DNA from: Polytrichum commune
Taxonomy: Eukaryota; Streptophyta; Polytrichopsida; Polytrichales; Polytrichaceae
Direction of reading: 5' to 3'
Assembly (NCBI GenBank): GCA_950295325.1
Contig: OX485804.1
Location: 13,516,001 to 13,580,000, forward strand
DNA length: 64,000 bases
The position numbers were made by a program, and so were the translations under genes. Under the pieces are notes generated by a model. That model saw only the letters and a program-made list of their open reading frames with translations, searched no databases and had not been told where the DNA came from. Each line of letters opens with the position of its first letter. Position 1 is the stretch's first letter. Below are positions 3,578 through 58,291 of the stretch, in pieces.

Positions 3578-6500
3578 TTTTTTAGTCTTATAAGGCGTCA
3601 TCTCCACTCTTTGTGAGTAAGAGGTGGAGCCAACTTAGCTTCACATTGGTGGAGTGGAGTCCCATAAAAATTGGGACACACCTTTAGCTTTCTTTATTGG
3701 GAGTAGCAAATGAACTCCATTACGAGCCGTGGATAGAGCCATCTTCCCATCCAAGGGCTCCCGTCACTTAGGGTTTAGTTGGGTGGGTTGAGTTATGTTG
3801 CCACTTTCTCCGCCATTCTCCACCCCTTTGGTTGCCACCCTCTTGCTCTCTTGGCTTGTACTTTGTAGCCTCTTTATTCATGTAGTGGCAATTAGTGGTG
3901 GCACTTTAAATTGATTGTAGTGGAGTTTAAGAATTTTGAGTACCAAATTTCAAGTTTCAAAGTGGAACGCGTTGGTGAGACTTAAAGGTGCCAACCTCCC
4001 TCCCTACCTACCTATTTGTACATGTATGTGTGATTGTAAGAATAATTTGTCAAAGCAATGATGTTTGTTATGGGTGCATTCTCTTATTCAAGTGGGTTGG
4101 TCCAATCTCTTTGGGTGCAGAAGGTATTACAAGTGTATAAAAGTTTCAATGCTAATCATCTTATATCTGTACAAACTAGTTCAATTATGGTGTAAATTGA
4201 CATTTAACACTTGTTGGCCTAAAATGTTGCTAAACGCTTTAAACGTAAGATATGTGGATGTTGATCCTCTCATAGATTTGCAAACTACTTGAACTTGAAA
4301 ACCTCTAGAGGTTTAAGGGGCTAGTGCGAATTTTGTTGGTGTAGCCAATTTCAATACGTAGCCAACTTCCCCCATTAGTTTGTGTTGTGTGTGGCCACAT
4401 GTAAACTATGAATATACACATGGGGCCACTTATTATTTTATATGTGTTCACCTTATTAAAACATACATGTGGCCTTGTATTTCTTCCATGTGCAATTAGA
4501 AGTCGCCACCCGAATCAACATATAGGTTATGTGCATTCGCCAAATACTTCCTTGATTCATTTGAATGTAGCCACCTTAAACCCCACAAACAATCTTAAGC
4601 TCACCACCTTGACTGCTTCTAAAACTTAGCATGTAGTATGCCAAGCCTACTACATTTTTGAAAACAAATAAGAAGGGTTGACCACGATATTTTATACCCA
4701 CTCTAAATTTCAACCCACAATACTAGGTGTGCTCGGTGTAGTTCTCTCTGTTGATTGATCTTGACGAATACATGCATCCATGAATGAGCTTCACACTTGG
4801 ACACTAAATGTGGTGCCGGTAGTACTGCAATTGAGGCAGACACAAACCTTTGGTGGCTTCAATTGTGATGTCGTTACTGCAACTCTATGATCGGGGAGAA
4901 ACTGGCAGTTAGTTACAGATGAACTGATTGAGTTTGAGAAATAACTGGTTGAAGTTGAAGACTGCAGGAAAATTACCAATCATTTTAGAGGAACTTATTG
5001 ATAATACCCCACTTTAGTAAAGGAAAACCGAAGGATGTCAACATGTAACCGGCTGGACTTACAAACTCTAGGATCCCAACCAATTATGCATGTCCAAAAA
5101 TCTTCCTGATCACTGCTGCAAATTGGTGCCACGAAGGCCCTCAATGTGAAATTCTTGTGGTCCTCATCATGAATGAATCTTAGGGGAATATTAGGTAAGT
5201 CGTCAATATGAGTACTCATATTGACTCTCACGTGTACAGATAAGAGCACAATTCCATTTATCATCTGGAGTTGGTTGATTGGCACTCAAGTTGATTGATC
5301 CAAAAAAACTGTCAGATCATCTTCACCTTGATTCTTGAAGCACACTGGCAGGCTGAATGCCTGTTTGCAGAGATGATTGATTTTGTCTCCGGGCTACTGC
5401 CAGTAGACTTGCAATTCCCTAGTCGAAACTTGAACCTGATAACATGAAAGAAATGTTCAGGGTTGGAGTTTAATCGCACATCTGTCAAAAGTACCTGACG
5501 TTCTAAGGGCTGTCTCGAGGTTATAATTAACTGTGAAACCATAACTTGCAGCTCACGAGCTTAAATTTGCTATTTTTGAACTTGATGTTGTTGAATGACA
5601 TAGCTAGAGGGGGCATTTAAGGTAGTAGGCACACCCAAAATCAACACTAATATTGCAACATTGTCAGACAATTGAAGCCCCAAATTTATATTGATTGTGG
5701 GACACACTTTTGATCGGTTCTTATTCTTACTAATTTTTTTGGAAAGTAATAGGTTGGCCACATGGTGAGTTATGAAGCAACCAATGTGGCGAGCTTGAGA
5801 TTTGTTTGTGGAGTTTAGAGTGGCTACATTTAGATGAATTAAAGGGAGTATTGGGCAATTGCACAGAACCTATCTGTCAATTTGGGTGGCGGCTTTTAAT
5901 TATCCATGGAAAATATTCAAGGCTACGTGTATGCTTTGATAAGGTGAACAATGGCCCCACATATAAAACAATAAGAAAATAAGTGGCCCATATTCATATT
6001 TGCACTATAGATGTGGCCACACACACCACAAACTAAGGGGAAGTTGGCTACGTATTGAGATTGAACAAGCCCATTGAAGTCGGCTACAATAAAAAACTGC
6101 ACTAGCCCCTTGAACCTCTAGAGGCTTCCAACTTTAATTATTTTCCAAATGTATGAGAGGATCAACATGCGCATATCATACATTTCAAGCACTTAGCAAC
6201 ATCTTAGGCCACCAACCCTTTAAAACTTCAATGTGCACCCAAATTGAACCAATTTGCAGACATATAAGATGATCAATGTTGAAACTTCGTACACTTGAAG
6301 TACCTAGTGCATTTCTACATCCAAAACATAGGACCAATGCTCTTGAATAAGAGAATATACTCAAAATGAACATCAATTCTTACAGAGACCACTCATATAA
6401 TCATACATATGAGTATAAATAGGGAGGGACAGAGGGAGGTTTGCATTTGCATTAACATAATTGCATCCAAAGGTGCAATTGCGGTTCCAAAATATTATGT

Positions 6501-7071
6501 TACTAGTAGGTATCAGAATCTCCTACTATTCATATTCAACTCTCAATTCCACTCCTCCCTTTCATGAATCAAAAACCTCATCATAAGGGGAACTGACAAG
6601 GTTGAATTGCCTTTGGGAATATATATACCCACTAAAAGCCCCAATTGAGAATCTCCGCAAGCCACCTTCAAGCATCACCAATGTGCTCCACTCTGGAACT
6701 TGAATTTCAATCCTCAAAGTCCTTAAACTCCACTACAATCAAAACGTAGCATCATTAATCGGCACTACATGACCAAGGAGGCTACAAGGTACAAGCTACA
6801 AGAGCAAGAGGTTGGTGACCAAATGGGTGAAGAATGAACGAGAAAGTGATGAACACCACTCACCTCACTCAACTAAACCTTAGACCAAGTGAGCCTTTGG
6901 ATGGCAGGATGGGCTTCATACACGGCTCATAATGGAGCTCATTGGCTACTGCCATTAATGAAGCTTAGTGGCGGGTCCCAATTTTAAGGTGACTCCACTT
7001 TGTTCATGAGAATTTACTTGGCATCACCTCTTACCCACAAAGAGTGGAGGTGGCACCTTACAAGCCAAAAA
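3578..7071. mobile_element. 3.5 kb long-arm inverted-repeat (foldback) element
   Basis: The arm beginning TTTTTTAGTCTTATAAGG at 3578 is the reverse complement of the sequence ending at about 7071. Matching blocks run inward for about 1.1-1.4 kb per arm: the TCTCCACTCTTTGTG block near 3600 pairs with 7040; GAGCCGTG near 3725 pairs with 6935; ATACGTAGCCAACTTCCCC near 4355 pairs with 6045; the GGGCCACTTATT block near 4425 pairs with 5980. The arms have diverged with many substitutions and indels. The loop (about 4740-5640) has only short minus-strand ORFs that I do not recognise. The architecture is that of a foldback or long-TIR non-autonomous DNA transposon, possibly Mutator-like. I could not establish a target duplication, so the class is inferred. 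Confidence 0.75.
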
Positions 7072-10451: not shown

Positions 10452-11132
10452 CACTTTCATTGAGTAAGTAAGCAATTAATTGAGATTAAATTTTCAAAGT
10501 GAAACTGTCAATAAAGCATGAAATTTACTTGGAAGTCAAAAATATTACAAAATCCTCATTAGTACTGAGGTTATAATTTATGTGATTTACCATTGAAAGG
10601 GTCTTTGTCATTCTAAAATGGAACTAAAATTAGTGATTTGTTTTTTAATATGTTAAATATTATAGTTTAGTTAATACCTTCTACTATCACAAAGTTTTCA
10701 TACGCATTTAAAGTAATTAAGTGTGATTGAATGTAACTGAGTCTAATTAATTTTGATCAATCTTGATTAATTATAATTAAGCCCAATTAAATCAGAAAGC
10801 ATGCTTACCAAATTAATTAAGCCTAGTTAACTATAAAATGTACTTACTGGAATTAATCATGATTTACTGGAATTAACTCCAGTAAATATAATTTATAATT
10901 AATTAGGCTTAATTAATGTGGTAAGCATGTTTTTTTATTTAATTAGGCCTAATTAGGATAATCAGAATTAATTAGACTTGATTACATTCAATCACACTTA
11001 ATTAGGTTAAATGCATAGGAATACTTTGTGAAAGTAGAAGGTATTAACTAGACTTGCCTAGCAAGTTATTGGTGATTTCACTTTGAAAATGAAATCCCAA
11101 TCAATTGCTTACTTACTGAGTCAATGGAAGTG
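10452..11132. repeat. AT-rich 680 bp inverted repeat (MITE-like)
   Basis: The left end CACTTTCATTGAGTAAGTAA is complementary to the sequence ending at 11132. The pairing continues through CTTCTACT.TCACAAAG, AATTAAGTGTGATTGAATGTAA and a GCATGCTTACCA.ATTAATTAAG block. It meets at a central palindrome around ACTGGAATTAACTCCAGT near 10865-10885. The left arm carries roughly 130 extra bases at about 10525-10655. There is no ORF. A (CTAT)n run abuts the left end. It resembles a MITE or foldback element. Confidence 0.75.
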
Positions 11133-20152: not shown

Positions 20153-23100
20153 TTAGTTGTGTTTTTTGTGACATGTAGTACCTGTGAACAAGGCGATCAA
20201 CGCCATGGTGATGCCACCGATGAGAAGACCCAACGACAACAACCACGCGATGTTGAGCAAGATCTTGTTCTTCAGAGGCTTCACGGGGATGTCGTCCACA
20301 TCGTGGATCGCGGGTGCTTTCAACCATGCGGGAGGATACCACCCCAAGTTTTGTTGAAGAAAGAACAAGTTCCCGAGTAAGAAACCGACGAACACGCCGC
20401 CCACGTTCAGGAAGTTGTCGACGAGCGGCATGAACCCGTACACGAGGTTCAAGATGATGAAGAAGGTGATGGCGACCAGGGTTTGCGTTCGGTGGCGGTG
20501 GGATTTCCAGTGGGTGACGACAGATGAGAAAGTCGCACCCAACAAGCCCATGAATGCAGCCGAGGCCCCGGTGGAGACACGTCCATGGAGGAAGAGGGCG
20601 GAGAGGACGTTCCCTCCGAATCCACTCAAAACAAAGATGAAGGCCACCTGCATGCAGGTAAGATATCAGGATAAACGGGTCGTAAATGGTTGTTTCCTTT
20701 TTTTCCCAGATTATTCCACTTCTTCCAAGATATTGAACAAGTGAATGATTAACAAATCCAACTTCAGTCCATAGCCAATTTTCTTCATAATTTCTGGAGT
20801 ACACATGAATATTTCATCAGAAGTTGTCAAAGTGAAGAATCTCGTCCTTCTTGAATGATCATATAGGGCCACATATTATGATGCTGGCTATGGAACCTAG
20901 ATCAGTTAACATACTTTGAGCACAGTTTTTTTATGTACAAATGATCAGCAACTTGCCTAAAGTCCTGAACTTGAACTGGTCATTTCTCAGACTCAAACGG
21001 CTATCTGTAACTAGCGGTCAGATCTCCCCGTTTGTGGTGGCCTACCACTCAAATGTGGGTGTCCGATCTAGGAACTGAATTAGACATGCTTAACTTATCT
21101 ACATCAACGGTTGCTTGGCTCGTGAAAGGTTTTACAGACCTGTGGTCAATGGGAAACATATAAGGTAACCAAGCCTAATTTGGTTACTTATTTTGATTGG
21201 ACACCTATATTAGAGTGGTTTGTGGTCTGGTGTGGATATTATAAACTTTTGTTAAATTTTCCTCATATTCTGGGAGTTCAAATAAATGGCTTGTTCAGTA
21301 TCACAATGAAAGTTCTTGTTCTTCTTAAATGAATGTATAGGTCCCCTCAAATTATGTTGACTATTAAACATAGATTAGTTAACACATCTTTTTGATGTCC
21401 GTTCATAGCTCACTTTTTTTTTTCAACACATGCCATTTTTGGTGTCCATTCTTAGAGCATGCGCCATGCCCACCATGATGGACAAATTTTCTTGCTATCA
21501 TTTGCTTTTGAGACTTTATGGGATTTGATGGTATGCTCATCTCTTTGTTTAAAACCAAATTTGCTCATTGTCCACCAATAATGTTATCATTTCATGTTAT
21601 TGTTTCAGTGAACGCATGGTTCTACTAATCCACTGAAACTCCTCTCAACTTGACTTTTTTTGGTATGATATTTACTAGCTTCTAAATGTTTGTAATTTTC
21701 ATTTTTTTAGTTTCAGTGCTAGACATAACTTCGGATATAAATAATATCGCACTATTTGTTACCAAATGCAAACATCTTGTGAGACGTTGTTTGTACATGT
21801 GACCATTTGCCAACATGCAGTGACCAGAATTCATATGCCTAGGTATTTACGGAGTCATCAAATTAGCAGGAAATGTAGTACCTTGAGGTAACCTATTTGG
21901 CGTTCGAGAGGAATACCAAAAACAAGTAACCCCATGAGGTTCCCAATTATATGGAAAACTCCTGCATGCAACCACATCGAAGTGAGCAAGCGCCAACCCT
22001 CGTGAGCTTTTGTCACGAGCTCTGCTTCCAAAGCTCCCATTCCTATTAAAGTCCTCCCTGAAGATCCCAATAGGGGATTCTCGCTCCACGGTTGAAAGGA
22101 AAATTTTCCAAGTGTCGGGAGAAGGCATAAATTTTTGTTGACGGCATTCTCGGGGCAGTTGTTGTGCTGCATGGTCATGATGAAGATGATTGCGTAACTG
22201 ATTGTGAGTGTCACAGAAAGCCATGGCGTGTGTGTTTTATCATCTGAGTCGCGACCAAAGAATCCGAGTCCGGGTGTAGGGCAAATTGCTCCTGCGTACA
22301 TAAGCATTGCAAAAAAATTGATAATTCTGTTGAACAAAATGATGAATAATCTGCCTCCATTGCCATATTGTTTGGATAATTAGATATCAAAATGCAAGTG
22401 ACTAGTGTTCAATGTTGAGTCAGTGTCGATACACACCGGTCGGGGTTTACTATCTTTTCAGGGCAAACTCATCATTTAGCTAAATTTGCAGTTTCATTCA
22501 TCATGGATTCGACTCATAATTCAGGGTCCTAAGTCTTGCAACTATAAAACATAGAAACAAAGATGAAAATTGCAATCCTATAGATGTTTGCGTGTCCATG
22601 CAGTGTTGTGGTTTGATATGATTGAATCAATGTGAAATTGGAATTGTTATTATATGAATTTAGAGGTTTGTGATGCAAGTATTTTTCCTCAAACACAAAT
22701 CTGCAATGGTGAAGATATGGAGCTAGTTGAAAGCTGATGAGGGCGTTTGGTTCGCTAGAGACAACTATTAACTAACTCCCTACATACTTGAGCCGCAGAA
22801 CATCATAGTCTAATTTATATTTCAGTGACTGTTCAAATATGTGCGACGTAGTTTACGTGGAGTGCAAGCCTCTTCAAAACAATCAAAGCTCCTTGCAGGC
22901 AAATATACATCACAGCATCTTACAGAGAAATTTGACTCACTGATTTTGAAACCCTAAAAAGCCAGAATACTCGGTCACGTATCTTATTTTCCTTCATTCT
23001 ATCCATCACAAACCTCAAAACTCACAAACCAACAATAATCTCACATTGATTCAATCACATCAAACCAGAACATGGAACCAACGCCTACGTATCAAACATA

Positions 23101-40008: not shown

Positions 40009-40264
40009 TATAAAGGGCTTTTGCGCAAGAGTAAGGCTTCTTTTATCTTATCTTGTGGTTGGGTGGTTCATGCCATAAGACACTTAGAGAGTTCTCAATA
40101 GTTCAAGCTAGGCTAGCTTGTTATATTGAACCTCGCTCTAATACTAATATAACAAGCTAGCCTAGCTTGAACTAGTGAGAACTCTTTAAGTGTCTTATGG
40201 CATGAACCACCCAACCATGAGATAAGATAAAAGAAGCCTTACTCTTGCGCAAGAGTCCTTTATA
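40009..40264. repeat. 256 bp near-perfect hairpin (MITE-like)
   Basis: Two arms of about 115-125 bases pair almost perfectly: TATAAAGG.CT.TTGCGCAAG, AGTAAGGCTTCTTTTATCTT, GGTTGGGTGGTTCATGCCAT, AAGACACTTA.AGAGTTCTCA and TAGTTCAAGCTAGGCTAGCT. A loop of roughly 20 bases lies near 40130-40150. Only a few mismatches separate the arms. TATA-like sequence borders both ends. It fits a MITE; transcribed, it would give a long double-stranded RNA. Confidence 0.85.
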
Positions 40265-49569: not shown

Positions 49570-51121
49570 TACCCACATTGCCTAATGTATCCCCGCCCCC
49601 CCCCCACCCACCCACCGAGAATGATCCACAAGCAATTTGCCTTTGGCTAGCCAACCTAGCAACTACTGCCAAAAACGCTAAAACCGAAGCCCATAAATTC
49701 ACAAACTCACCAACAACTCATAATCGTTGCAAAGCCATCAGAAAAAACATAGATCTCTACTAAAAACAAATCCCGAAAAATTTGCATTAACGAAAATTCC
49801 ATCCATGCCACCATACTACCTTATAAACAAAGACGGTGACTTAGCAACACTCCCATACGCCATCACAACAATCACACATACCATTCAAATTGCATGCTTC
49901 AAAAGACAAGCCCCCTTATGCTCGGACCCGACAAACCACTCCACTGATTGTGTATGTGCAGTCCGCCAATATCCATGGCAAACTACATATAGCTTCATCC
50001 TAGAAAAAATGACCTCCACACCCCTACCACTACTAGCCTGAGCCTCATCATTCACAAAAATATCTACAACACAAAAGCCTATCCAACAAAAAATCCCCAC
50101 GACCAAATGATATGCTCAATGATATCCTCAAAGCATTACCAATTCACTTTCACGACATGATGTATCTTTCTTTTCTCCAATGTTACCACCAAAAAATCAT
50201 CCCTAGTGAATGGAAGGATAGCACCACAATATTGCTCCACAAAAAAAACGATCCCATTATAATGACAACTATTGATTGATCACCTTGGTGAGCACCATAT
50301 ATAAATTACTTACAACCACAATCTAGAAGGGTTCTATCCAATGAGAAATATAGCTCGACAAATTCAATGAATCATTGCTACTCTAAAAGACACCAAAGTC
50401 ACAAAAATGACATATACCACACTTATACAGACTTTAAGAATGCATTTGATTTCATAGACCACCCACAATCCCTAGCGATCATTGGAACCTTGGTTACGCT
50501 ATAGCATTAGTCAACAATATGTACGTTGAATCTTCCACCTCCTTCAAAGGTGCTTACTTCACCATGACTCCTCCTATCTTAATTAGCCGCAGAACAATCC
50601 AAGGCAATACATTGAGCCCCTATCTATTCATCATCTTCCTCAAGCTTTTACTCCGATGGCTAGAAAAAAACCAACTAAGCTACCATTTTAACATATTGCC
50701 GAATAGCATCACAACCTCTGCGGATGACCTTACCATCCTCACAAATAACATCAACTAGGCAACCACAAGTAAACAAATTTAGTAGGTACTCACTCAAAAT
50801 GGACCCATATGGACCTAGGGATAAACAAACATGTGGTAACAAGTTGCTTCAATAAGTCAAAAATTCAACCAATTGCTTTCAACACTTATCAAAAAACACA
50901 AACAATCGACTAAAAGAACCAACAACTACAAAACCTCTCAAAAAACAGACCATAAATGTACCTAGGCATCAAGCTAGTCCCATCCCTTGAATGGGTCATC
51001 CAAAAAGAAATTACAACTGCAAAAATAAAAAGTAAAGCACAACCTTCCTCCTATCGCCAACCTTCTTACAACAATAAATCAAAATCCTCAACACAATCAT
51101 CCGCCCATGTATGAAACATGC
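49570..51121 (+). pseudogene. LINE, 5' half: decayed reverse transcriptase
   Basis: Broken plus-strand frames read as a non-LTR reverse transcriptase. At about 50100-50250 there is ALPIHFHDMM, QCYHQKIIPSEWKDSTTILL and HKKNDP. Later, at 50585-50755, RTIQGNTLSPYLFIIFLKLL, LRWLEKNQLSYHFN and a catalytic-loop remnant SADDL (normally YADD) appear. It ends at 51121 in ILNTIIRPCMKHA. The frame then stops because another element is inserted; the continuation FYATPFSVLD resumes at 61817. Stops and frameshifts show it is inactive. The coding strand is A/C-rich. Confidence 0.75.
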
Positions 51122-51560
51122 TGTCGGAACATGGGATCGACAAAAACATCCGGTTAAGCATTTTTAGTGCTTTAATCCGACTGTCCGGATGATCCGAGTA
51201 TCATTCCAGGGACCCTGTGAAGTGTAAGATGGTTGCTCCTCTCCTTCCTTGGTTGAAAATCAACCACCGGGCAGAATGGCCTTTCCGTTTCCGGATGGTC
51301 AATTGGAAATCCTCACTTCCGGGACTTGCCTTCCAGATGAACCACTAAAGCTAAGACTTACTCCTACTCCTACCTCCTCTATTCCTACCTCCGATGGTGA
51401 TGTGGCTCATCCGAGAAAGATGCCCCAATCTTGCCACTTTCCGGTCTTTCCTCACAACCAATCCAGATCAGTTTAATCCAGCCTAGCAGGTCACATAAAG
51501 AATCCGTAATGTGTGCCCGGAACTACAACGACAGATTGATATGGATCCGCCAGGGTCTAT

Positions 51561-52095
51561 AAATCCGGGATAATTGGGCGACCCGTACCGCTCTTCGAAC
51601 TACCCCTCCCAGATACTGTGGGACCTCATCAGAAGGTCCGATGGCGTAAGTTCGAGTACCCCTCGCACCCCTTACCCATTCCTAACAGCGGCTATCCCAC
51701 ATAGAAGATATACAGGCAAACGAACCAGCGAGGCTTCACTCCCACTACACCTCATAAGTGATCAACCGGATCCGGAATCCTAACCTATCCGGTTTCTCTC
51801 CCTCTTCCGATAGACCTTTCCGGCTACAAGTGAATGGGGTCCAGTAAATCCGGGATAACTGGGCGACCCGTACCGCTTTCCGTACTACCCCTCCCATATA
51901 TTGTGGGACCTCATCAGAAGGTCCGATGGCGTAAGTTCGAGTACCCCTCGCACCCCTTACCCATTCCTAACAGCAGCTATCCCACATAGAAGTTATACAT
52001 GCAAACGGAACAACGAGGTTTCACCTCCCACTACACCACAGAAGTGGTCAACCCAATCATGTAGTCGGATCCGATCCGGGCCTTTCCCTCTCGTG
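51561..52095. repeat. 285 bp tandem duplication within the nested element
   Basis: Units start with AAATCCGGGATAA at 51561 and 51846. They share GGGCGACCCGTACCGCT, GTGGGACCTCATCAGAAGGT, CCGATGGCGTAAGTTCGAGT and CCATTCCTAACAGC, with about 90 percent identity by eye over the first 175 bases. The high identity suggests recent origin. Confidence 0.9.
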
Positions 52096-52289
52096 TTATC
52101 ATGACTTCCTAACTCTCATATTCTCCATAATCCTTGAACACACTCCGGACTGCTCATGCATAAACACACTAGGGCTATAGAGAATCAGATTTTTATTGAG
52201 TTAGAAAGCACAAACACTACTACAAAAACATGGCTTATATGACTGGACATATGACTACTTTGAGTTTACAAAACACTCAAATATATTTT

Positions 52290-52780
52290 TACTTCCTAGT
52301 CGTTTCAGGTTAGTCTAATAAGGCATAGTCAAATGTTACGTAGTCTAAAAAACATGGTGTACATTAGACTATGCTTTTGAACTTTACATTAGACTATAGT
52401 CAGTCAATAAAACATTGATACATTAGACTACATGTAGTCACAAGTAACAAAGTACATTAGACTACGGGTAGTCAAAACACATAGAGACATTATACTATGG
52501 GTAGTTAATAAAACACACATAAGTAGACTATGGATGGTCAAATAAACTACCGTGATGATTCATCTTGACAAACATTCTGAGACATAATAGACTACTCCTA
52601 GTCAATAAAACATAGTTTGTTGTGGCGTTGTTGACTACTTGGTGTATAGTAATTGACTATATTATGGTAGGGTTTATTAGTCAATAAGAACATGACTTAT
52701 ATGGTTAACTGACTATCGTTTGTGTACGATATATGATGTTGGGCATAATTGAATAGTCGTTTGTCTACTTGGAGTGCAAA
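52290..52780. repeat. CACTA left subterminal repeats
   Basis: More than fifteen copies of TAGTC or GACTA cores, often as TTAGACTA or AGTCAATAAAACA, in both orientations. Counterpart repeats lie at 57640-57890 by the right end. Confidence 0.85.
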
Positions 52781-53696
52781 GAACTTCAACATCACATCAT
52801 CTTACAGTAAAAAAAGAGCATATTGCACTGGGTTCTTTTGCAAATTGACTAAGAAAAGATGGCAAGTTGTATTTTTTAAACCAATCAAACACATTCATAA
52901 GACTGAAATTAGTCTCCATTAGAGTCAATAAAACTTGCAACATGAGGCTAGGTAGACAAAAAAAAGGTATGTGGACCTTTACTATATATGAAGTCATGAC
53001 AGTCTACAATGAGTTCCCTAATCCACCAAGAAGAACCAGATCCTCTTTTCTCCACAAAATTGGTGCAAATTGAGAGTCTTTCATCCGTACTTGTGAAGGA
53101 TTCCCCGCAAGGTTTGGATATTACAATTTCGCATCTTGTACCTACACTTTGTTTACCAAAACACTAAAACATCATTCTGGAATTTCATCTCCGTTGTAGT
53201 TGTCACCTGGACAACCTGCAATTTGTCCTTGAGCAACTAAACTAAAATTCGGATCCATTATATCCACACCTGCACACCCCTTCTACTGCATACATCCACA
53301 AACAAATCACATGTTAGTTTCAAGTGAATATTCTCTTCCAATGTATTTGAGCAATTGGTATTCAAATACTCGAAACAACCCAGCTGATTATCTTTCTGCC
53401 TATCTCTCAAACTAGAAGACAAACATCAATATGAATTAGCACGGCCAGGAATACAAAGTATACAAAAGTATATGGGTTTATGTAGAGAGCCTCCCATTCT
53501 ATGAACTATCTATTGAGCAGCTGTATTTGAGTGGTGTGTGGTTGAATGAATTATCTATTGAGCAATTGTATGTGATTTGTAGGAAGAGTTTCTGCACATT
53601 TGGAAAAAGAGGAGCAAAGTGAAGAATCCTAGAGGAAAAATGGTACCTAACAAAAGAAAATCACATGTGGATCACATTTGGAATGATTTTTGCTCT

Positions 53697-54340
53697 TGCC
53701 TCAAACCCTTGCCTGCCTCTTGAAGTTCTTTGAGATGATTTCTGCTCTTGCCTCAAACCCTTGCCTGCTCTTGCTTCAAACCCTTGCCTGCCTTGCCTGA
53801 TTGTATGTCCTCAAACCCTATCCACCCTTAATGTTTCATTGTCTGATTGTATGTCCTCAAACCCTTGCATGCCTTGCCTGATTGTATGTTCAACTCTTGT
53901 TTGAGATGATTTATGGTTTGTCTTGTTGAAACCCACAATCTAAAACCCTTAGAACTATCACTTAAAAACCTTGTCTCAAACCCTTGCTCAAACGCTTGTC
54001 TCAAACCACTTCAGATATCAAAACCCTTGTCTCAAACCACTTCAGATCTCAAACCCTTGTCTGAAACCCTCAAACTACCACTTAGAAACCTTGTCTCAAA
54101 CCTTTGCTCAAACGCTTGTCTCAAACCACTTCAGATCTCAAACCCTTGTCTCAAACCCTTACTTGCTTGAGATGATTTCTGATGATGTCTTAAACCCTTG
54201 TCTAAAACCCTTAGACTCAAACCCTTGCTTGCTTGAGATGATTTCTGAGATGATTTATGAAACTATTGTTTGAGATGATTTCTGCTATCTTGTTGAAACT
54301 CAAACCCTTGTCTGAAACCCTCAAACTACCACTTAGAAAC
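53697..54340. repeat. Tandem array of CTCAAACCCTTGTCT units
   Basis: Irregular repeats built from CTCAAACCCTTG and TGAGATGATTTCTG, with a higher-order unit containing CAAACCACTTCAGATCTCAA and AAACTACCACTTAGAAACC. It lies in the 5' part of the CACTA element, upstream of its genes. Confidence 0.85.
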
Positions 54341-54410
54341 CTTTAGTAGGAAACCCTCACTTACAAACTCTCACTAGGAAATCCACAATTGTCCACCCTT
54401 ACTGTTCCTC

Positions 54411-54522
54411 ACTGCATTCTTGCATTCCTTGCTTCACTTGCAATACATCTTGCATTCCTTGCTTCACTTGCAATACATCTTGCATTTCTTGCTTCACTTG
54501 TAATACATCCTTGCATTCCTTG
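54411..54522. repeat. 30 bp tandem repeat, three to four copies
   Basis: Units of TTGCATTCCTTGCTTCACTT followed by GCAATACATC, with one or two substitutions per copy. Confidence 0.85.
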
Positions 54523-54864
54523 TTCCACTTGTTTCACTGGCATTTCCCGCCTCCATAGAACCATGTTCCCGCCTTTTTTTAAAACGTTCAAATTTTAAAT
54601 ACCCTATGTAGTCAATAAGTTACCTTTTGACTCACAATATGTGACATCCAGTCAATAAAAAAATATTTATAAGCACCTCTGTGACTTATGTAGTCAATTA
54701 AGCACCTATTGACTAACCTTAGTATACATGGCAAAGACCTATGTATTGCAATATCCTATATGGCAAATAGTGTTTTAATTAATTTTGTGGCATACTAATA
54801 TGTATATTAGTATAATGTATCAATATAATTATTATGGTATTATCTAATAATTGTTACAGCAAAC

Positions 54865-55255
54865 ATGGTGGAAGGGAAACTTGATCCCAACACCATGGAG
54901 GTTGCCATTTGTGCTAGAGAAGAACTACAAGCAAATCGTCTTAAGCTGCATGAATATCGTTGTCCATGCAACAAATGTCATGGTTCTCAAGTGCTCAACC
55001 GGACGACGATACGAGCACATCTCCGAAAGTTCAAGCGTGACGAATTCTTCACACAATCAATTCTGGTGAGTTTTTATTTATTCATACAATGTTGATAGTT
55101 GGATCAATTTCATTGTTTGCAACATAATGTAGATAACATAGACATCAAAGCTTGATGTTTTGCATTTATGTATGGTGTAGGATAAACATCGCCTGCAAGT
55201 GAAAAAATCAATGAGTTTGGCATTAAAGGCTTTTCTTAGAGAAGGCTTTTGCCAA
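54865..55255 (+). CDS. CACTA transposase N-terminal exons (zinc-binding Transpos_assoc-like)
   Basis: Exon 54865-55065 starts with ATG and encodes 67 residues. CPCNKCHGSQVLNRTTIRAHLR (shown here by its ends: C-P-C-x-K-C ... L-x-R-x-x-I-x-x-H-L) matches the Cys/His pattern of the domain that precedes Tnp2 in plant CACTA transposases. A good donor follows (CTG|GTGAGT, phase 0). A second exon at 55181-55255 (acceptor GGTGTAG|GAT) adds 25 residues in phase, KKSMSLALKAFLREGF, and runs to a possible donor (CCAA|GTAAGA). If that donor is not used, the frame continues to the A-run at 55261-55263, where one extra A would separate it from the SET ORF. Confidence 0.6.
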
Positions 55256-55262
55256 GTAAGAA

Positions 55263-55784
55263 ATGTCAGCTTCATTTGTGCCTAAGGCCATAACCCAATT
55301 GGTCAATTTTGACGTGGGGAAGAACTATGGCCAATGGCCTACTCTACCAATCCCACGGATGACCCCCTTCACATGGTGGAACCGTCAATGGGAAATTAGA
55401 ATATCCACATTTCCGTACATGGGTTGGGGTCTATTTACACTTCAAAATTTGGAAGCAGAAGAAGAATTGATTCCATTTACGGGGCCTTGCTACACAACCA
55501 ACCAATACAAAAAGATGCAAGGTTATTTTCCAAGAGTAAAATGCTATGCATTGAATGCGGAAAAAACATTTTACATTGATGGGGATGTGGAAAAAAAGAA
55601 TGTTGCAGGCTATATCAATAGCTCTATTGATAGGCGTGAGGAGATTGAAAATGTCATTTGGGAATATCATGATGTGGATCCTAGACCATGGAACAAGAAA
55701 GAATGGAGATATGTAATGACTAGGTCAACTAGGCCTATCAAAGCAGGAGAAAAACTATTTGCATACTATAAAGCAAGATTTTGA
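55263..55784 (+). CDS. SET-domain ORF inside the CACTA transposon (173 aa)
   Basis: An uninterrupted ORF with the SET-domain order of motifs. Residues 54-58 are GWGLF (the SAM-binding GxG motif, usually RGLFA), and residues 68-74 give EELIPFTG (usually E.I.EY.G). Then come FYIDG at 103-107, NVAGYINSS at 113-121 (usually N.ARFINHS) and IKAGEKLFAYY at 159-169 (usually I..GEEL.YDY). The fold signature is convincing, but the NHS His is Ser and DY is YY, so activity is uncertain. The known role of SET domains is lysine methylation of histones or other proteins. It lies between the transposase zinc exon and the Tnp2 domain, in the same orientation. A phase-0 donor (TTTGAG|GTTAGC) lies four codons after its TGA stop, and a phase-0 acceptor (TTTGGCAG|GGA) opens the Tnp2 exon, so SET was plausibly part of one transposase protein. 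Confidence 0.75.
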   Translation: MSASFVPKAITQLVNFDVGKNYGQWPTLPIPRMTPFTWWNRQWEIRISTFPYMGWGLFTLQNLEAEEELIPFTGPCYTTNQYKKMQGYFPRVKCYALNAEKTFYIDGDVEKKNVAGYINSSIDRREEIENVIWEYHDVDPRPWNKKEWRYVMTRSTRPIKAGEKLFAYYKARF

Positions 55785-55905
55785 GACTTTGAGGTTAGCA
55801 ATGGACCAAATAACCTTTTTTTACTATAAATTTCAAAACATTTTATTTTTGTCTTGGTTGACTTGAGAACTTTACACTTTATTATTTAATTTCAAAATTT
55901 GGCAG

Positions 55906-57435
55906 GGACCGGATCCCGAGTTGGCGCCATTGGGTTGTGATCCTTATTCACTGTCAAATCGTGAATATCCCCATACATTGGGTTGTCATGGCAATCGAAT
56001 TCAAGCACCTTGTACATGTTCATTCAATGAAAGCATAGATCCTGAAACTGAGTTGCATCGCATGTGTAATGAAGCATTTATCTACTATGACGAAGTCCAT
56101 GGGAATAGCTCACGCGAAGATGACATCCCTGATGAGGTGGAAAATGATGAGGATGGGCATACATTGGACTCAGGAGATCCTGTGGTGGACCCCAATTTGG
56201 ATGAATTACTTAAGTGGGCTAACACTCTTTTGTATCCAAGGAGTAAAGTGAAGCTCTTACAAGCTGTGTTGCTTATTCTTAATACATGCACAGTGCATAG
56301 TACTACGAATGGCCATATAGATGAGTTATTAACTCTCCTTTCTGAGGATATATTGGAGCCGGGCAATTTATTGCCGAAATCAAGATATGAAGCCAAAAAA
56401 ATTCTAAGAAACCTTGGATTGTCCTATGACTCTATACACGCTTGCGAAAATGGATGCATATTGTATCGAGGGGAGCACAAGGATCTTGACAAATGCTCAA
56501 AGTGCGATTGCAGCCGATATGTGAAAGGGTCGTCCACAGTCCCGCGAAAAGTACTTCGCCACTTCTTTTTTATCCCAAGACTTAAACGAATGTACCATTG
56601 CAAATCCATAGCTGGGCTTATGCAACATCATGCACATAATCGACCAAAAGATACAGGATCTCTTGAAACAAGTGCAGAAAATGAGAATTTGGTGCGATCG
56701 GTAGCAGATTCCAAGGCTTGGAAGCACATTGACAGTATGTGGCCGGATTTTGCTGTTGAGACCCGTAACATACGATTGGGTCTAGCTACAGACGGGATGA
56801 ACCCATTTGGTGATTTCAACTTGAAACATTCTACATGGCCAGTGGTACTTTTAAACTATACTCTACCTCCATGGCTTGTGACAAAAAGATTTTTCGTCAT
56901 GTTGGCTCTCATCATTCCTGGGAAAGATGCGGTTAAGGATCATAACTTTGATGTTTATTTAGCACCTGTCATTGAAGAATTTCTCCAGCTATGGCAAGGA
57001 GTGTGGGCATATGATGTTGCTGCAATTAATGGTAACCATCGCTTCTTGTTGCGAGTTGTTTTGATGTGGACCATACATGATTTCCCAGCCCTAGGTCTTG
57101 TTTCAGGGTGTGTAACCAAGGGTTACAAGACTTGTCCAAATTGCCGGCCAAATACAATTGCAAGGTACTCGAAACCTATGCGGAAAATGATCTATACCGG
57201 TCATAGATGCCTACTCGCTCGCCCACATCCTTACTGAAAAAAGAAAAGCTGGTTTAATGGCAAGATAGAAAAAAGGACAAAACCACAAGCACTCTTGACA
57301 GACGAGATTATAAAAAATGCTACAGAGCGGGATGAATGGATTGCTAAAGGGGAAAAACCTAGAGCCATAAATGACCCTGTACACTTAGAGGACAATTCAG
57401 ATTACCTTGGAATTTCATCTTCAGATGAAGAATGA
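55906..57435 (+). pseudogene. Tnp2 (Transposase_21) domain, interrupted and C-terminally truncated
   Basis: From the acceptor at 55905 the frame is open to a TGA at 57235-57237. The sequence matches plant CACTA Tnp2: an acidic N-terminal region, LLSEDILEPGNLLPKSRYEA, RNLGLSYDSIHACENGCILY, then DKCSKC, VPRKVLRHFFFIPRLKR, LATDGMNPFG, STWPVVLLNYTLPPWL, DVYLAPVIEEFLQLW, WTIHDFPALG and GYKTCPNC, ending HPY. In the family HPY is followed by R then KKK..FNG. Here TGA replaces the Arg codon and the frame continues KKKSWFNG to a second stop at 57433-57435 after ISSSDEE. The remaining C-terminal part of Tnp2, including the last conserved acidic residues, is absent, so this copy cannot make a full transposase. 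Mobility would depend on another copy. Confidence 0.85.
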
Positions 57436-57639
57436 ATGTCATACCGGCTTGTGTATCTCATACGTACAAAGTAGTTATTACAAGGTGCACATAGCCATGC
57501 TTCTAATTCAATTTGTATTTGATATGCCCAAACTTTATGTAGGATCATGTGCCATGCATGCATACAAATTACTGAGTAAAAAAAACAACATATGCAATAG
57601 ATAGGTTGCTTGCTACCAATAATGTATGAACCCTCAAGT

Positions 57640-57890
57640 TTTTAAGACTGTAGTTAGTCTAAATGTGTGATTGGGTCTTGAGTCAAAAAAACATATTCAA
57701 TGCATAGTTTGCTCGCTCCCAATAATGTATGCCTCCTCTGACTTTGTGGACTATGTTTAGTCAATAAGTGCGATTGGATTGTTGAGTCAAAAAAACCAAG
57801 GGTGATTTGGGACTATGGTCAGTCACAAAAACCACCCTGACTATGAGGTCGGGCTACCTCAGTTAAATAAACATGGATAGTCAATTGTGC
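57640..57890. repeat. CACTA right subterminal repeats
   Basis: Copies of TTAGTC, AGTCAATAAG, GAGTCAAAAAAAC and GACTATG match the left subterminal array. They end about 30 bases before the right TIR. Confidence 0.8.
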
Positions 57891-58291
57891 CGAGACATTA
57901 AGCCATGTTTTTGTAGTAGTGAAAACAACACAAAGGGGGGAAAAGACCCCTTCCCAAACTTCCAAGCCCCCTAATAAATAGTGGTCTTTGACCCCAAACT
58001 GAAGGGGCGGAGCTGTTGGCCGCTCTACCCCACCCTAACTGAGAGTGTCATGGAATCGACGCGTTTGCGGAAATTCCGGATCTCAGATCCTACTTTCACG
58101 CTAACACAAAATTTGAACTACCACTTCCCTGCACGACCTCCTACTCCTGACTATCCAACTGTCTAACTACCTAACTTAGGTGGTTCGGTGCTTCTCGGTG
58201 TTGTTCCTGCCTTGGACTGGCTGGCCATCCCTGCTGGCCCACTGATTTCGGACACCCCTTCACCTGGGGTCAGGAGCCTCCTCTCCTGAAG

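Follow-up and report, generated by a model that had tools for sequence, protein, structure and literature searches.

A CACTA element with a SET reading frame

The window, that is the whole 64,000-nucleotide stretch of DNA that was analysed, contains a CACTA transposon of 5707 bp on its forward strand, bounded by perfect 23-bp terminal inverted repeats (TIRs) and by a candidate 3-bp target site duplication. Its features are given below by window position; ranks refer to the 116 donor and 146 acceptor sites scored in the window, and TAD denotes a Transpos_assoc-like zinc-binding block.

52212..52214: AAA, left copy of the candidate 3-bp target site duplication
52215..57921, + strand: CACTA element, short non-autonomous type
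52215..52237, + strand: left terminal inverted repeat, 23 bp, perfect match to the right end
52253..52914: left subterminal region, 22 of the 32 TAGTC/GACTA motifs (raw counts)
54865..55065, + strand: exon 1 with TAD, predicted phase-0 end (PF13963 22.7 bits, cutoff 27.7; donor rank 1 of 116)
55066..55180, + strand: predicted intron 1 (T 42%)
55181..55784, + strand: predicted exon 2, leader and SET to its stop, with a one-base offset in the leader (acceptor rank 2 of 146)
55263..55784, + strand: SET open reading frame, 173 codons, from ATG at 55263 to TGA at 55782-55784 (PF00856 34.5 bits)
about 55422-55769, + strand: SET domain proper (PF00856)
55782..55784, + strand: TGA that ends SET; 15 of 16 close copies have a stop at this codon
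55794..55905, + strand: predicted intron before Tnp2 (donor rank 2 of 116, acceptor rank 1 of 146; T 44%)
55906..57432, + strand: exon 3 with Tnp2, predicted phase-0 start (PF02992 206 bits, about 56686-57231)
57655..57882: right subterminal region, 6 of the 32 TAGTC/GACTA motifs (raw counts)
57899..57921, - strand: right terminal inverted repeat, 23 bp, perfect
57922..57924: AAA, right copy of the candidate target site duplication

The TIR begins CACTACTACAAAAA. Short TIRs, a 3-bp target site duplication and a Transposase_21 domain assign the element to the CACTA superfamily, which PMC10741241 defines by short TIRs (mostly under 50 bp) starting with CACTA or CACTG; the transposase is thus of the CACTA type and not of the Harbinger type. 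Within the window, neither further TIR copies with up to three mismatches to the first 19 TIR bases nor a second copy of the element were found. Besides the two subterminal regions, three TAGTC/GACTA motifs lie at 54609-54715 and one within the gene, so that by raw count 31 of 32 are outside the gene. Diverged tandem repeats occupy part of the 5' region of the element (53699-54531), and a direct repeat of about 215 bp (51553-51767 and 51837-52053, 91% identical) is located just outside its left end.

A preliminary description of this DNA, made from the sequence alone, had placed a 173-codon SET reading frame between the zinc-binding exon and the Tnp2 domain of a bounded CACTA element, all in one orientation. 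Domain searches bear this out: SET matches PF00856 well above the cutoff of 22.4 bits (E 2.8e-8, profile positions 1-104 of 105), and Tnp2 is matched by PF02992. The length of the reading frame alone is weak evidence, as a stop-free run of at least 174 codons arose in 3 of 300 shuffles of the element. A chance origin of the SET frame is excluded by the PF00856 match together with the presence of the same three blocks, in the same order, in all 16 close relatives described below.

SET-bearing and SET-free relatives in the genome

The genome (assembly of 408 Mb, 64 contigs) was searched with the window SET protein as query. This yielded 150 scored matches among 196 candidates, down to 30% identity; 95 of the 150 cover at least 140 of the 173 residues, of which 64 are stop-free and 31 contain stops. 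Group A consists of 17 full-length rows including the window copy, the other 16 being 78-95% identical to it, while SET identity to the window is about 55% in group B, 50% in group C and 36% in the distant group D. The other 16 full-length rows of group A were fetched with 10 kb each, along with six loci of groups B-D. SET lies upstream of Tnp2 in all 22 relatives fetched at length, and TAD, SET and Tnp2 follow in the same order and orientation in 16 of 16 close group-A copies. Both TIRs were present in the fetched stretch in 7 of the 17 group-A copies, the window included, with identical 3-bp flanks in every case (7/7); none were found in the stretches fetched for the six B-D loci.

Eleven copies were read beyond Tnp2. 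In seven (L012, L013, L014, L015, L017, L020 and the window) Tnp2 ends with a TGA followed by the same short end, and in the other four (L021-L024) reading continues beyond this TGA position. In the window the TGA (57235-57237) breaks Tnp2 in frame, and the PF02992 profile resumes weakly beyond it (11 bits, below cutoff). By tblastn, DUF4218-like and DUF4216-like sequences are found downstream in six of the 17 group-A copies (L016, L021-L025); no match to either was obtained in the window element, in which the canonical autonomous gene set (TAD, Transposase_21, DUF4218, DUF4216) is incomplete. Because the Tnp2 TGA and the short tail are common to seven copies, with DUF4218-like sequence downstream only in others, the window copy belongs to a 3'-deleted lineage. 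It is a decayed deletion derivative within a short non-autonomous lineage that still carries SET. In L021, L022 and L023 about 400 extra bases lie between SET and Tnp2 relative to the short copies.

More complete gene sets occur in the other groups. L027 (group B) and L029 (group C) carry, respectively, TAD at 21.3 and 20.7 bits (both below cutoff), SET at 39.0 and 41.0, Transposase_21 at 247 and 217, DUF4218 at 125 and 118, and DUF4216 at 29.0 and 29.4 against a cutoff of 30.6. L031 (group D) has a TAD-like match of 19.1 bits (below cutoff), SET at 24.9 bits and then Transposase_21 in two exons (76.6 and 48.3 bits); SET and Tnp2 pieces are arranged likewise in L032. All these SET scores, and a further one of 41.7 bits, exceed the PF00856 cutoff, as does that of the window. 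The 7.9 kb compared between L027 and L028, which lie on different chromosomes, show 98.3% identity.

Some minor matches were seen along the way. The TAD exon of L027 (3125-3322) matches the U-box profile PF04564 above cutoff (23.1 versus 21.4 bits), with Transpos_assoc below its own; the window, L029 and L093 give U-box matches that fall short of the cutoff. Ahead of SET in L029 (3403-3996) there is a PF15524 match of 19.9 bits (cutoff 25), probably due to chance. A neighbouring SET-bearing element is located about 15 kb past the window end (C2:13595370-13595843), with a SET frame of 198 open codons, 49% identical to that of the window, and Tnp2 downstream at C2:13597209. No relatives of SET or Tnp2 were found in viral contigs, nor of SET in prokaryote contigs; two exact matches of the 19 TIR bases in viral contigs are taken as chance.

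A Tnp2 domain search of the genome, with 150 matches scored among 643 candidates, generalises the arrangement. A same-strand SET lies 903-2411 bp upstream (median 1345) of 73 of the 150 scored Tnp2 matches, with the same placing and orientation in 73 of 73; other SET-Tnp2 arrangements within 6 kb number 0 of 150, the mean under random placement being 0.2. The preliminary description had named the absence of SET from other family members, the lack of a profile match and a one-off gene capture as outcomes that would refute it; none of these occurred, SET being present at the same place in 16 of 16 close relatives and upstream of 73 of 150 scored Tnp2 matches. A one-off capture of a host gene is likewise ruled out by the genome search. 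SET is a real, multi-copy and selected feature of one CACTA assemblage.

The remaining 77 of the 150 scored Tnp2 matches have no detected SET, SET-free meaning here that none of the 150 scored SET matches (from the 196 candidates) lies within 6 kb upstream. Transposition therefore does not need SET. Three such regions (L093-L095) were read, and no SET-like reading frame was found upstream of Tnp2 in any of them. In L094 and L095 TAD (26.2 and 34.7 bits, cutoff 27.7) is part of one open reading frame that reaches the start of the Tnp2 domain. In L093 TAD (21.5 bits) is joined to Tnp2, from the corresponding point in TAD, across a predicted 203-bp phase-0 intron, using the best-scoring donor and the second-best acceptor, the sole open join of six tried. 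This suggests that the SET exon occupies an intron also present in a SET-free relative, and that TAD-Tnp2 is the ordinary transposase.

The history of SET was traced on a Tnp2 tree of 40 of the 77 SET-free and 20 of the 73 SET-bearing matches, plus the window, L024, L027 and L029, with group D left out. SET presence requires five changes on this tree, at least four of them forced by starred branches, and the single SET-free rows L040, L043 and L044 sit within SET-bearing branches. A single acquisition of SET does not by itself account for these five changes, which imply either several losses or several gains.

Constraint and motif residues of the SET domain

The SET domain is under purifying selection between subgroups, with dN/dS of about 0.25: values are 0.23-0.27 for L024 against L012, L014, L022 and the window (four pairs), and 0.24 for L014 against L029 (groups A and C), at a dS of 1.58. 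In the other four pairs between groups A, B and C, dS is saturated and dN is 0.32-0.40. Over 55 pairs within subgroup A1 dN/dS is 0.70, and it ranges from 0.52 to 1.18 in five other close pairs; these values are near those of decay, as would be expected of decaying copies. The comparison of dN/dS between copies that the preliminary description had suggested thus points to constraint between subgroups but approaches decay within A1. When six parts are compared within each of the two near-identical pairs, SET differs least in both, with 1 difference in 603 positions versus 9 in 1578 for Tnp2, and 4 in 594 versus 31 in 1488, these being small counts.

Seven aligned SET sequences of groups A-D share an invariant GxGLF, cofactor-motif Asn and final Tyr, and in all seven Ser replaces the usual His. 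The preliminary description had noted altered NHS and DY motifs and for that reason left activity open. The change of His to Ser is indeed present, but it is family-wide (7/7) and no mark of decay in the window copy. A SET domain dead by virtue of altered NHS and DY motifs was rejected on the same grounds, the alteration being common to seven sequences of four groups in which other key residues are invariant. A profile of the seven sequences, compared with solved structures, matched MLL1 (PDB 2w5y, 3.2e-6) and ASH1L (PDB 3ope, 2.3e-5) best, and EZH2, NSD2, SETD2, SUV39H2 and the bacterial effector SET LegAS4 more weakly. Unlike MLL1 and ASH1L, the element SET has Ser for His in NHS, and no post-SET part was seen. 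Structure prediction from a single SET sequence was unusable (mean pLDDT 32.8).

The SET motif is given as H/RxxNHxC in PMC4146578, according to which PR domains do without many of the same residues, yet activity has been reported for several of them, which co-purified proteins may explain in part. Loss of the Tyr lowers the activity of PRDM7 (PMC4919437). Methyltransferase activity of the element SET is plausible; it is unproven, because the catalytic-site His is Ser throughout.

Reading frames, a proposed exon choice and known transposons

Splice sites were predicted with simple plant weight matrices. The two top donors (55066 and 55794) and the two top acceptors (exon starts 55906 and 55181) alternate and frame SET, and such alternation with both introns of 70-200 bases was obtained in 3 of 1500 shuffles. 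T content is 42% and 44% in the predicted introns and 24-27% in the coding blocks. By these predictions, groups A, B and C all have phase 0 at the end of exon 1 and at the start of both the SET and the Tnp2 exon. Not every site is intact or strong: the intron-1 acceptor in L014 and the acceptor before Tnp2 in L016 and L018 are changed, the SET acceptor of L029 is outside its best seven, and the Tnp2 acceptor of L027 and L028 was placed by eye outside the scored range.

In the window copy the three-exon join is closed, since the start of exon 2 is in a different frame and SET stops at a TGA ahead of the donor. The leader of exon 2 is in frame with SET in 15 of the 16 close copies, two of which (L025 and L026) have a stop inside the leader, and the extra base that breaks the frame is common to L018 and the window. 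The preliminary description had proposed that the upstream exon could be joined by removing one A from a homopolymer; the offset is real in the window copy, but alignment with the relatives places this base behind a run of T and not within a run of A. Its phase-0 intron between SET and Tnp2 needs a similar correction: the acceptor at 55905/55906 is indeed a predicted phase-0 site, but the donor is 55794 and not 55797, and the in-frame TGA precedes it. Of the 16 close copies, 15 have a stop at this same codon immediately behind SET and L021 is shifted by one base, and a stop ends SET within eight codons of the domain end in all six loci of groups B-D. Among five close copies written out, the predicted TAD-SET join is open in L012, L014 and L022 and interrupted by stops in L013 and L017; in L027-L030 the predicted TAD-SET and TAD-Tnp2 joins are both open, as far as the pieces were read. 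Removal of SET by way of a donor at 55256 gave the best of 20 open forms in the window, but was rejected, as GT is present there in 0 of 16 relatives (GC in most).

Given the conserved stop after SET and the phase-0 junctions, exon choice is the simplest reading, and we propose that SET is probably a cassette exon in the transposase gene, the use of TAD-SET or TAD-Tnp2 being set by exon choice and SET marking chromatin near element copies. The SET exon would lie within the intron that separates the N-terminal TAD exon from that of Tnp2. Splicing of TAD to SET would yield a TAD-SET protein that ends at its own stop after about 265 residues, and skipping of SET the TAD-Tnp2 transposase; donor 55794 falls after the SET stop, and exon skipping has no need of it. 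The common TAD head could then bring a lysine methyltransferase to the DNA bound by the transposase, where its marks on histones, or on some other protein, in or close to element copies would most likely counter silencing or prepare targets. What the sequences show is the gene order, the presence of SET throughout the family, the reading frames, the conserved stop, purifying selection between subgroups and the existence of near-identical copies; that the exons are spliced in this way and that TAD does the targeting are inferred, as are the activity, the substrate and the benefit.

The preliminary description had called a single ancestral TAD-SET-Tnp2 polypeptide plausible, in which the transposase itself would contain a methyltransferase domain. 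Its first half stands, in that TAD and SET share one frame (leader in 15 of 16 copies), but the conserved stop separates SET from Tnp2, and we now consider the full fusion unlikely. It would account for the framing of SET by the best two donors and acceptors, an arrangement found in 3 of 1500 shuffles, and most close group-A copies, as well as the two C loci (L029 and L030), have a GT at the end of SET, before the stop, from which Tnp2 could be reached in phase 0; this GT scores 5.3 bits in L012, and the window has GC there. The position of the stop argues against the fusion both in group A (same codon in 15/16) and in the six B, C and D loci where a stop also ends SET, as does the fact that in L027 and L028 (group B) no GT lies between SET end and stop. 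Moreover, the SET Asn motif is kept in 4 of the 20 open splice forms of the window, all four of which lose the end of SET. SET could instead be a separate gene nested in the transposase intron, beginning at an ATG of its own (55263 in the window) and having no TAD part. This would suit the window copy, where the SET frame is complete from ATG to stop despite the broken leader frame, an offset shared by L018, but in 15 of 16 close copies SET continues the frame of the leader, the ATG is missing in L024, L025 and L026, and in L027-L030 the open frame begins at the acceptor, in phase with TAD. A nested gene is accordingly rather improbable.

A last alternative is that SET is a passenger, captured once, carried without use and decaying with the copies. 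The dN/dS of 0.70 in A1 (55 pairs), the stops in 31 of 95 near-full-length matches and the 77 of 150 Tnp2 matches without detected SET would all be expected of such a passenger. They have to be set against dN/dS of 0.23-0.27 between subgroups, the 64 of 95 near-full-length matches that are stop-free, the position of SET as the least diverged part in both near-identical pairs, and its same place and orientation in 73 of 73 SET-bearing Tnp2 matches, so that we regard a mere passenger as quite improbable. The cassette exon remains our preferred reading. It is tempting to extend it, tentatively and with somewhat more doubt than conviction, to a widespread CACTA lineage in which one gene gives rise to both a transposase and a self-targeted histone methyltransferase, the two sharing a DNA-reading head and the latter marking the element's own ends, splicing balancing marking against jumping.

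Related arrangements are known from other transposons. HarbingerS and Phytophthora MuDR transposons carry SET histone methyltransferase genes (cited in PMC12730594). They are, by description, likewise DNA transposons with a SET methyltransferase, but belong to other superfamilies, whereas the present element is CACTA, with its SET exon between TAD and Tnp2. The canonical plant CACTA gene order is TAD, Transposase_21, DUF4218 and DUF4216, with an ORF2 bearing Transposase_24 or Peptidase_C48 (PMC8978399). TIRs, 3-bp flanks, TAD and Transposase_21 are common to that type and the present family, and DUF4218 is found in L027 and L029, but the canonical type is without the SET exon that sits here between TAD and Transposase_21; the word SET was not found in the main text of PMC8978399, whose CACTA domain sets do not include it. 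The maize element En/Spm and SmTRC1 produce several proteins from one transcription unit by alternative splicing (PMC2613891, PMC1636069). As CACTA elements with multi-protein splicing, which is predicted only in the present case, they resemble our model, but they are without SET, and in En/Spm it is to subterminal repeats that the second protein, TNPA, binds. A TET/JBP dioxygenase is carried by EnSpm and Plavaka transposons of fungi (PMC12730594); these are, as here, EnSpm-type elements with a gene for a chromatin-modifying enzyme, although that enzyme, in fungi, serves DNA demethylation and is not a SET protein methyltransferase.

In the open-access literature searched by title and abstract, which leaves subscription journals, Repbase Reports and preprints outside its scope, no report of SET in CACTA was found. 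Within that scope, an enzyme-type SET domain would be new to the known CACTA superfamily; SET in other transposon superfamilies was already known. Host silencing of transposons acts via chromatin marks, and SET inside a transposase gene suggests that elements may write such marks themselves. With a selected SET-type domain in near-identical copies, one could test directly whether transposons deposit such marks as a means of evading silencing or of selecting targets, and SET-bearing and SET-free sister elements in one genome form a natural control pair. If the TAD head common to both products is confirmed, the element would offer a natural sequence-guided methyltransferase.

No Rfam families were found in the window at gathering score. 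A large inverted repeat with arms of about 1 kb (3580-4634 and 5760-7071, 74-76% identical) is perhaps a foldback or long-TIR element, and self-complementary, MITE-like stretches are located at 10664-11054 (79%) and 40009-40264 (90% identity to its own reverse complement). A weak reverse-transcriptase fragment is present at 50450-50755 (PF00078 22.2 bits, below cutoff). A rhomboid protease gene, probably of the host, lies in two pieces on the - strand (20156-20665 and 21861-22379; PF01694 53 and 47 bits).
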